A stretch of 34,160 nucleotides of DNA, from NCBI GenBank assembly GCA_028715905.1, contig JAQUQV010000026.1:1-34160 (forward strand). Direction: 5' to 3'. Positions 31,373 through 33,801 of the stretch are shown here, in pieces; positions within the stretch are counted from its first letter, which is position 1, and each line of letters opens with the position of its first letter. The position numbers and the translations under genes were made by a program. The notes under the pieces are model-generated. The model was not told the origin of the DNA and searched no databases. It saw only the letters and a program-made list of their open reading frames with translations. Source of the stretch: Kiritimatiellia bacterium (lineage in GTDB: Bacteria > Verrucomicrobiota > Kiritimatiellia > JAAZAB01).

Positions 31373-31631
31373 ATGACCATGAAAACAATACAGATCGGCT
31401 CGTTTGAAGCAAAAACGCGTTTCAGTCAGCTCCTGCAGGAAGCGGAAAAAGGCAAAAGCTTTGACCTTAATTTTGCGCCGCGGCAAGCCCGTGGCGCAAC
31501 CCAGGGGAATTGGCTTGGCAGCCAACCTGAAACCCGGACGCGCAGCGTTGGATTTTTTTCGCGATACGCGCCGCAATTTACCAATTTCGCCTGCTGAAAT
31601 ACAGCGCTGGATCAACAAAGGACGGCCTTGA
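31373..31631 (+). pseudogene. Phd/YefM/VapB-type antitoxin, broken by a frameshift
   Basis: The first 31 codons read MTMKTIQIGSFEAKTRFSQL, then LQEAEKGKSFD, the DNA-binding start of a Phd/VapB antitoxin. The expected continuation appears one frame over as LILRRGKPVAQPRGIGLAA and runs to WINKGRP with a TGA at 31629-31631. One extra C in the run at 31465-31466 accounts for the shift. The unshifted frame continues only as meaningless residues to 31597. The restored protein would be about 85 residues, normal for the family, and its stop overlaps the toxin ATG in TGATG as in intact modules. Either the module is dead or the read contains an error at this base. Confidence 0.75.
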
Positions 31632-31750
31632 TGACCGATAAATGGGTAATGGATTGCTCTGCAATGGCCGCTGTTATTTTATGCAATCGCCCGGGCCCGG
31701 CGCCGGCAGGGACATCTGCCCAAACAATTCTGCCGCGTAAAACATTCTAA
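31631..31750 (+). pseudogene. VapC-like PIN-domain toxin, truncated to its first strand
   Basis: ATG 31631 overlaps the antitoxin stop. The 39-codon frame starts MTDKWVMDCSAMAAVIL, in which VMDCSA matches the first metal-binding Asp motif of PIN-domain ribonucleases (hhDxSA). After about 20 residues the similarity stops in a GC-rich hairpin-bearing sequence. The frame ends inside the palindrome at 31739. A full toxin has about 130 residues and three more acidic residues, none of which was found in any frame to the right. It is therefore a remnant. Confidence 0.65.
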
Positions 31751-31776
31751 CATTCTGCAGAATGTTAGAATGTTTT
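31739..31776. repeat. 38-nt perfect palindrome, left copy, at the 3' end of the ArsR-type gene
   Basis: AAAACATTCTAACATTCTG followed by its exact inverse complement, centred on CTGCAG (31755-31760). Each arm holds ACATTCT twice. It contains the stop codons of both the VapC remnant and the ArsR-type gene, giving both proteins the same last residues (KTF). The hairpin ends in TTTT on either strand, so it could serve as a bidirectional terminator. Confidence 0.85.
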
Positions 31777-32031
31777 CATGAATTTCAGAAAGGCTTGGCC
31801 GTAGGGCGAAGGAAAATGCGCCACCTGGCGGCCGCGATATTTTTTATTCAGGAGGCCGGCCTGAACCAACGCGCGGGTATGCTGGGAAATGGTTTTAAGG
31901 TTTGCGTTCAGCGTCAGCGCCAGATCGGCCAGCGCCATCCCCGCGTTTTGTTCAACGGCCAGCAAAATGGCAATGCGCCGATGATTGGCCGCCCCCTTGA
32001 AATACCGCTCCAGTTGTCTGGGTGTTTTCAT
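31765..32031 (-). CDS. Small ArsR-type winged-helix regulator
   Basis: An 88-residue protein that is a single winged-helix DNA-binding domain. It reads HRRIAILLAVEQNAGMALADLALTLNANLKTISQHTRALVQAGLLNKKYRGRQVAHFPS, with the recognition helix around LKTISQHTRALV and the wing KKYRGRQVAHF. The domain layout fits the ArsR superfamily. There are no Cys residues, so no thiol metal sensor site; the effector is unknown. GGGAGG (32045-32040) lies 8 nt before the ATG. The gene lies exactly between two copies of a perfect palindrome; the right copy covers its likely promoter, suggesting autorepression. It is convergent with the toxin-antitoxin remnant and divergent from the GbsR-type gene. Confidence 0.85.
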   Translation of the reverse strand: MKTPRQLERYFKGAANHRRIAILLAVEQNAGMALADLALTLNANLKTISQHTRALVQAGLLNKKYRGRQVAHFPSPYGQAFLKFMKTF

Positions 32032-32060
32032 AGCATTCGCCTCCCGTTTGCACGCGCTTT

Positions 32061-32096
32061 CAACATTCTAACATTCTGCAGAATGTTAGAATGTTG
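32061..32096. promoter_or_regulatory. 36-nt perfect palindrome, right copy, probable operator of the ArsR-type gene
   Basis: CAACATTCTAACATTCTG followed by its exact inverse complement, centred on CTGCAG (32076-32081). The inner 34 nt are identical to the left copy at 31739-31776. It lies 30-65 nt upstream of the ArsR-type ATG and overlaps the core promoter. Confidence 0.8.
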
Positions 32097-32100
32097 TCAA
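32073..32100 (-). promoter_or_regulatory. Probable promoter of the ArsR-type gene, embedded in the palindrome
   Basis: On the minus strand TTGACA (32100-32095) and CAGAAT (32078-32073) are 16 bp apart. The -35 is perfect; the -10 matches 4 of 6. The spacer and -10 are palindrome sequence, so a bound regulator would block polymerase. Confidence 0.5.
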
Positions 32101-32177
32101 GAAAAGAACGCGGAAAAGCAAGCATTCTATCGGAACTGGATAAAAACATTCGGCCGGCCCGCTATCGCCATGGCGCA

Positions 32178-32329: not shown

Positions 32330-32830
32330 ATGAAAAATCAAAAAAACAAAGCCGTCGGCGAGGTGCGCGCGCGCCTGGTTGAAACCGCCGGGCGCACCAC
32401 GCAGGATCTCGGCCTGGGCAGGATCATCGGCCAGGTGCTCGCCGATATTTATCTGACCGAGGGGGAGAGATCCCTGGACGACATCGGACAAAACCTGGGG
32501 CTCAGCAAGGCCGCCGTCAGCATCGCCGCGCGGCGTCTGGAGAGCCTGGGGCTTCTGCAGCGCAGCTGGAAACAAAGAGACCGCAAAAACTATTACCGGG
32601 TGGTTGACCATTTCGGGGTCGCCCTGCGGAGAGGCATAATGGAAATGATACGGGACAAGCTCCGCACCACCGGCGCGGAGCTTGACCATGCCGAAGCATT
32701 ACTGCGCCATACGGGCAACGACACAGGCGAAACAAAATTTCTGCGCGCCCGGCTCCAGCGCACCAAGCAGATATGCCGCCGCGCCGCGCGGGTTTTGAAT
32801 AACCCCGTCATGAAAATGATGGGATTGTAG
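32330..32830 (+). CDS. GbsR/MarR-type transcriptional regulator
   Basis: The 166-residue winged-helix protein resembles the GbsR branch of MarR regulators. LGRIIGQVLADIYLTEGERSLDDIGQNLGLSKAAVSIAARRLESLGLLQRSWKQRDRKNYYRV contains the helix-turn-helix (about residues 47-70) and the Arg-rich wing. A long C-terminal helical region (about 85-166) probably forms the dimer interface. GbsR proteins often control osmoprotectant or membrane-transport genes, but no such gene is adjacent here. There is no strong Shine-Dalgarno. It is divergent from the ArsR-type gene; both sit in the region right of tRNA-Val. Confidence 0.85.
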   Translation: MKNQKNKAVGEVRARLVETAGRTTQDLGLGRIIGQVLADIYLTEGERSLDDIGQNLGLSKAAVSIAARRLESLGLLQRSWKQRDRKNYYRVVDHFGVALRRGIMEMIRDKLRTTGAELDHAEALLRHTGNDTGETKFLRARLQRTKQICRRAARVLNNPVMKMMGL

Positions 32831-32964
32831 GCCGGTAGAAAATGGATGTTGCGCGTGGTAAAAGCTCGGCGCCCGCCTGCATCGCGACACCTGCCTTACG
32901 GCGGATCGGGATGCAACTGCGAGCAGGCATAATTTATAAAGACGGAGTGTAATTATTCTCGGAA

Positions 32965-33801
32965 ATGAAAAACATGAAGCCATCCAAAGCGGGCGATACC
33001 CGCAACCCAACTGGAGCCGGCCTGCCCCCAGGCCGGTCAGGCCGGGGTGATGGCGCCCCGGCTCCAAAAGATACACGCAAAAACGTGTATGTTTACAGAA
33101 AAGGTGCTAATTCGTCATTATCGCATCCCGCAAACATGGATGAATTAGCGGAGGAATGTTTGCAGGCTTTGGCTCAGCGCGGATTGGGCAGAATTATTTC
33201 AATTGGCGGCGCGTTGGGATTACTGCATTATCTGGATTACAGGGTTACCCGCGACGCCGATGCCTGGTGGAACGATTCTGCCGCAGAGACTGAAAAACAG
33301 CAGGTGATTGAAGTTATCCGACAGGTTTTAGCGTCCAGAGGCAATGTTCAGATTCGATCCTGGGGTGATGTGGTCAGTATTGAATTGGAAAACAAGGGGC
33401 GCGTGGTTTTCAGTTTCCAGATTGCCAGACGATCCGCGCGTCTGAGCGAAAGCCGAAAAGCGGCCTGGGCGGATATCTGGGTGGATGGTTGGGAGGATTT
33501 GTTGGCGTCAAAAATGACGGCTCTTATCGAACGCGGCGCTCCAAGGGATTTTCGGGATATTTTCGCCGTGTGCCATGCGGAATTAACGGCTCCCGCAGAC
33601 TGCTGGACATTATGGGCTAAACGTCAACTGCTGGCCGGAAGCGATGCCAACCCGGAACGGGCCAGGTTGGCCTTGCATGCCCATCTAAAACGCATTGCTT
33701 TGCATCGTCCGCTGGAAAACATTAAAGATAGGAGAGAACGCGCCGAAGCGGACAGCCTGCGGCGCTGGTTTAACGGAAAGTTTATTGATGCGCTCAAATG
33801 A
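32965..33801 (+). CDS. AbiEii-like nucleotidyltransferase-fold protein
   Basis: The 278-residue frame contains a nucleotidyltransferase core of the AbiEii type. IISIGGALGLLHYLDYRVTRDADAWW has the GG motif and the DxD-like acidic pair for metal and NTP binding. DIWVDGWEDLLASKMTALIERGAPRDFRDIFAVCH is the typical second part, with a conserved Lys and the RDF-D segment. AbiEii-type proteins are toxins of type IV toxin-antitoxin or abortive-infection modules. The first 40 or so codons run through two hairpin elements (33011-33090), so the real start may be GTG 33085 or ATG 33136; no good Shine-Dalgarno decides. The next small gene overlaps the 3' end by 14 nt. No AbiEi-type antitoxin is seen upstream. 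Confidence 0.72.
   Translation: MKNMKPSKAGDTRNPTGAGLPPGRSGRGDGAPAPKDTRKNVYVYRKGANSSLSHPANMDELAEECLQALAQRGLGRIISIGGALGLLHYLDYRVTRDADAWWNDSAAETEKQQVIEVIRQVLASRGNVQIRSWGDVVSIELENKGRVVFSFQIARRSARLSESRKAAWADIWVDGWEDLLASKMTALIERGAPRDFRDIFAVCHAELTAPADCWTLWAKRQLLAGSDANPERARLALHAHLKRIALHRPLENIKDRRERAEADSLRRWFNGKFIDALK
33011..33090. repeat. Compound hairpins at the 5' end of the nucleotidyltransferase frame
   Basis: GGAGCCGG (33013-33020) pairs with CCGGCTCC (33058-33065), enclosing GGCCTG (33019-33024) with CAGGCC (33029-33034). A separate stem ATACACG (33071-33077) pairs with CGTGTAT (33084-33090). All are perfect. They would lie in the coding region if translation began at 32965, or in the leader if it began at 33136. 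Confidence 0.5.

Follow-up and report, generated by a model that had tools for sequence, protein, structure and literature searches.

A small ArsR-like regulator gene lies between two copies of its own probable binding palindrome, single copies of which are dispersed through two bacterial groups

In a 34,160-nucleotide stretch of Kiritimatiellota DNA (contig JAQUQV010000026.1, positions 1 to 34,160, referred to below as the window), a gene for an 88-residue ArsR-like protein is bracketed by two perfect palindromes that share an identical 34-nt core. The same bracket recurs around about 25 close homologues in the Patescibacteria and three Kiritimatiellota, while single copies of the palindrome are scattered through the genomes of both groups, in many cases in frame within core genes. 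As far as we know, dispersed bacterial palindromes with a partner protein are otherwise tied to transposases. The sequence-only reading that prompted this work described the palindromes, the gene between them, and the two convergent stop codons in the left palindrome, and this description is correct apart from a small point about the promoter. Its interpretation, which offered autorepression with DNA looping, a combined operator and bidirectional terminator, or a mobile regulator cassette ending at the palindromes, is partly supported. The features of the locus are as follows.

31725..31740, no strand: outer left flank, 15 of 16 nt identical to the left flank of the solo copy on contig C99 of the same genome
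31628..31750, plus strand: VapC-like remnant of 40 aa ending in the left palindrome, with no Pfam hit and a resemblance to VapC judged by eye only
31739..31776, no strand: left (3') palindrome, 38 nt, perfect, 19-nt arms with no gap, holding the TAA stop of the regulator and the stop of the convergent VapC-like remnant
31765..32031, minus strand: 88-aa, cysteine-free ArsR/SdpR-like winged-helix protein
32040..32045, minus strand: ribosome-binding-site-like GGGAGG, 8 nt upstream of the ATG
32061..32096, no strand: right (5') palindrome, 36 nt, perfect, 18-nt arms, probable operator in the promoter
32095..32100, minus strand: TTGACA, a -35-like box overlapping the outer edge of the right palindrome, also present in the related genomes G005 and G007
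32096..32117, no strand: outer right flank, similar to the right flank of the solo copy on C99 (89% over 56 nt including the core), its first 8 nt, gtcaagaa, also found at the G005 and G007 cassettes

The shared core, AACATTCTAACATTCTGCAGAATGTTAGAATGTT, is made of two 8-nt direct repeats facing two inverted ones, and the two copies are spaced 321 nt start to start. The longest gapless palindrome arm in 20 shuffled windows is 9 nt, against 19 here, and the half-site ACATTCTAACATTCTG has 4 matches in the window where 0.10 are expected. That the regulator and the VapC-like frame both end in KTF is a direct result of the symmetry. The VapC-like frame belongs to the remains of a Phd/VapB-VapC-like toxin-antitoxin pair (window 31373-31750), comprising a frameshifted antitoxin and a toxin cut after about 25 codons; the palindrome on contig C16 of this genome also lies upstream of an intact-looking AbrB/PIN-like pair. 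Elsewhere in the window (32330-33801), a MarR-like gene is followed by an AbiEii-like nucleotidyltransferase (Pfam AbiEii above cut-off).

The protein is assigned to the ArsR-type winged helices by Pfam HTH_5 (PF01022, 23.4 bits over a cut-off of 22), with HTH_24 also above cut-off. An AlphaFold2 model predicts a winged helix with a mean pLDDT of 90.5, and a Foldseek comparison with solved structures places it closest to MarR-type and ArsR-type repressors such as MexR, HlyU, CadC and SmtB. The protein contains no cysteine, however, and so has no classical ArsR metal site; the NCBIfam HTH_metalloreg model scores 37.4 bits, below its cut-off of 55.

We next considered how widely the bracket is conserved, since absence of the palindrome near orthologues had been put forward in advance as evidence against the proposal. 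It is found at nearly every close orthologue: about 25 homologues at 53-84% identity are bracketed, most with fixed geometry, in which one palindrome starts 6 nt before the end of the last sense codon, so that its TAA is the stop, and the other ends about 20-36 nt before the start codon. Seventy loci, including 40 chosen from palindrome-negative genomes or divergent subclades, were then scanned for palindromes without any motif given. Most have a palindrome upstream, downstream or both, with a sequence that differs by clade but usually agrees within a locus, for example ACATCCTTACAAACTGGAGTTTGTAAGGATGT upstream and a near copy downstream in locus L265 (the CATCCTTACAAACT type), or the TATTCT-type palindromes of loci L272 and L275, although some divergent loci show a palindrome on one side only or none. 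Within the core both arms change together, for instance C-G/T-A at position 8 and A-T/G-C at position 1.

The upstream copy overlaps the promoter, although not in the same manner everywhere, and here the sequence-only reading, which had it covering both the -35 and the -10 regions of the window gene, needs a small correction. In the window the right palindrome lies 30 nt upstream of the ATG (core to start codon), and in the window, G005 and G007 the TTGACA box overlaps its outer edge. In the Patescibacterial clade nearest to the window, a -10 box often starts 14 nt after the palindrome, which puts the -35 in the inner arm, while in another clade it starts 5 nt after. At least 5/6 of TATAAT is present there in 34 of 48 loci, against a shuffled mean of 19.4 and a maximum of 27. 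The palindrome therefore covers the promoter, but not always both boxes. Either way binding would block the promoter, and autorepression through the upstream copy is the natural inference, well supported by sequence through the promoter overlap and through palindromes that change with the regulator clade at both ends, although neither binding nor repression was assayed. Genes resembling tspO/MBR lie next to the regulator on the same strand in 8 of 87 loci (L079, L111, L140, L175, L225, L234, L256 and L259), and could be a regulated target. A PIF1-like helicase gene lies near the regulator on the same strand, also in 8 of 87 loci (L080, L091, L115, L118, L221, L222, L256 and L263), with L222 and L256 having the same helicase behind regulators of different clades.

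Wide occurrence of the palindrome without the regulator had likewise been named beforehand as grounds for rejecting the proposal, and on this point the outcome goes the other way. The window genome holds five copies, the two described above and single copies on contigs C99, C16 and C34, so that 3 of the 5 are not beside the regulator. In the same family, genomes G003 and G005-G009 hold 1-10 copies each, while the other genomes of the class that were searched hold none; across all of the genomes counted, copy number in others ranges from 1 to 17. A scan of one genome for each of 84,980 species returned at least 117 stretches and found the palindrome in Patescibacteria (Liptonbacteria, Sungbacteria, Brennerbacteria, Giovannonibacteria and others) and in this Kiritimatiellota family, although 46 of the 117 stretches carry no phylum in their title, and some members of the Kiritimatiellota family are titled Verrucomicrobia or Lentisphaerae by their submitters. 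Viral contigs gave no match, and a viral vehicle was rejected on this result. The palindrome is not only a local operator pair.

The positions of the solo copies do not resemble those of an ordinary regulon. Of 123 solo sites, 31 lie in ORFs of 100 aa or more, 21 lie between convergent genes and only 5 between divergent genes. No -10 signature is seen on either side, and 53 of 94 neighbouring stops lie within 60 nt, against 20 of 62 starts. In-frame copies lie in pgk, fba, murB, mnmA, tsaD (two lineages), prmC (four genomes), uxaC, a 6-phosphogluconate dehydrogenase and others; the gene names come from recognition of the sequences, except for pgk, murB and fba, which were confirmed against PDB. 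Comparison of murB with PDB shows an 11-residue gap exactly at the palindrome, and in one murB (L181, 6493-6546) the palindrome is extended by 10 further perfectly paired nt on each side. The prmC genes of G003 and G008 are empty sites, and filled copies carry 17 extra codons against G008. Insertions of this kind would explain odd 11-17-residue insertions in the proteins of these organisms.

The edges of these insertions are not clean, and we looked without success for a constant target-site duplication. In fba the site is a hypervariable loop of the class II fructose-bisphosphate aldolase, which holds unrelated 7-8-nt tandem repeats in related Patescibacteria (L209, L210, L213, L214, L217 and L218) at the place where L101 has the palindrome, so the insertion edges are blurred there. 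Long flanking palindromes are not a general feature: usually only the first two flank positions extend the dyad, although 12 of 169 sites extend by 5 nt or more, against 1.5 expected by chance.

Palindrome and regulator tend to occur together. In 286 genomes of one Patescibacterial class, 44 have both, 18 the palindrome only, 26 the regulator only and 198 neither (odds ratio 18.6, Fisher p about 2e-19). Relatedness of the genomes inflates this figure, while part of the regulator-only group has diverged palindromes that the pattern cannot see. The 18 palindrome-only genomes, one of them with 7 copies, show no regulator at E 1e-10, although these are MAGs and may be incomplete. In 15 genomes, solo copies were closer to the bracketing copies of their own genome (2.23 mismatches) than to those of other genomes (3.86 +- 0.35; 0 of 5000 permutations). 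By contrast, Y1_Tnp (HUH) transposase genes, common in these genomes, show no association with the palindrome (42 of 62 palindrome-bearing genomes, 146 of 224 others, p 0.76).

The suggestion that the unit is a mobile cassette gains support as an evolutionary unit. Homology between the window cassette and those of G005 and G007 stops at the left palindrome and a few nt beyond the right one. The solo copy on C99 carries both outer flanks of the cassette without the gene, and one in G006 (L062) carries a remnant of the regulator's 3' end. In an 84-row tree the three Kiritimatiellota proteins sit inside Patescibacterial ones, although support is modest (SH-aLRT 74 to 90 around the Kiritimatiellota, from only 88 columns). 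We also considered contig C3 of G007 and contig C34 of G005 as a clean pair of solo and cassette sites, but the right-hand gene is shared while the left gene differs, so rearrangement cannot be excluded. Gene order at a palindrome in these genomes (G005 C34, G007 C3 and C4; L072, L075, L076) is pirin-cassette-FMN reductase against pirin-Mrr-cassette-MATE and RM-palindrome-FMN reductase, suggesting rearrangement between copies.

Based on these data, we favor with reasonable but not full confidence the view that the 34-nt palindrome is the binding site of the small ArsR-like protein, which represses its own promoter through the upstream copy, while the second copy closes the gene at its stop codon. 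In this view, the palindrome-gene-palindrome block is one inherited and horizontally transferred unit that came from the Patescibacteria to one Kiritimatiellota family, and the palindrome is at the same time a short dispersed repeat whose solo copies derive from, or evolve with, the resident unit, settling where they do least harm: behind genes, between convergent genes, and in frame in protein loops. The conserved bracket, the promoter overlap, the clade-specific palindromes at both ends, the dispersal, the in-frame copies with an empty site, the co-occurrence and the cross-phylum transfer are all read from sequence, whereas binding of the palindrome by the protein is our inference; we did not identify the machinery that copies or moves the palindrome, or learn whether the protein takes part. 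The result is a testable case of operators spreading as repeats, in ultra-small Patescibacteria and one Kiritimatiellota family, with copies tolerated in frame in core enzymes. A more speculative possibility, which we consider unlikely but of great interest if true, is that a repressor-operator pair has become a self-spreading genetic element, in which the winged-helix protein, without any transposase of its own, promotes the copying or retention of its operator around the genome, and the unit passes between phyla.

The alternative that survives best, although we hold it only as a possibility, is that the palindrome is an independent selfish repeat comparable to the Rickettsia palindromic elements, and that the ArsR-like gene merely adopted copies as operators and plays no part in dispersal. 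The in-frame insertions are consistent with this, as are the genomes with the palindrome but no regulator, including G363 and G003, the latter 94% complete with 4 copies and no close regulator. The strong co-occurrence, the resemblance of solo copies to the resident bracketing copies, and the solo copies that carry cassette flanks (C99) or a regulator remnant (L062) argue against it. An ordinary autorepressor with paired operators, a genome-wide regulon and a repression loop between the two sites 321 bp apart is unlikely; the promoter overlap, the identical copies at both ends and the nearby tspO-like and PIF1-like genes speak for it, but we reject the regulon on the basis of the positions of the solo copies, which lack -10 boxes, favor convergent over divergent gaps and stops over starts, and lie inside genes. 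Looping itself is possible and was not tested. It is also unlikely that the left palindrome is mainly a bidirectional terminator: it sits between convergent frames in the window, and many solo copies lie between convergent genes or just after stops, but no T-run follows the stem, an A+T-rich stem is a poor intrinsic terminator, in other clades this palindrome lies up to tens of nt after the stop, and copies also lie in coding sequence and over promoters. Weakest is the idea that these are true REPs moved by an unlinked RAYT-type Y1 transposase, which, despite the shared layout and the abundance of Y1_Tnp genes, is opposed by the lack of association, the absence of a Y1_Tnp match in high-copy genomes such as G161 (14), G147 (9) and G395 (7), and the lack of a GTAG head beside the core.

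No paper on such an element in the Patescibacteria was found in the open literature, a search that leaves out most subscription journals, and the closest known systems each share only part of the arrangement. In REP/RAYT units (repetitive extragenic palindromes with REP-associated tyrosine transposases), one gene always lies between two palindromes, the same palindromes are dispersed in the genome and are lineage-specific, and the arms show compensatory changes (PMC2817692). The unit described here shares these features, including the flanking of a gene by two copies of a dispersed palindrome, but it is not a member: the bracketed protein is a winged-helix repressor with no HUH/Y1 domain of the IS200/IS605 type, no conserved GTAG/GTGG head is present in the flanks, where only positions 1-2 are skewed, the palindrome lies over the promoter, copy number is 1-17, and many copies are in frame inside genes. 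The Rickettsia palindromic elements are likewise inserted in ORFs of core genes without breaking the frame (PMC3767692), as is seen here with the empty prmC sites and the murB gap, but the present unit is not a member of these either: they are 100-150 nt in length and belong to Rickettsia/Wolbachia sequence families, while the present palindromes are 34-38 nt, occur in the unrelated Patescibacteria and Kiritimatiellota, and bracket a DNA-binding gene. The ArsR/SmtB family regulators, in particular the SdpR-type autorepressors, share the predicted fold, the Pfam and NCBIfam similarity, and an inverted repeat over their own promoter, but the window protein differs in lacking cysteine, in having a second palindrome at the stop codon, and in having operator-like palindromes dispersed as repeats.
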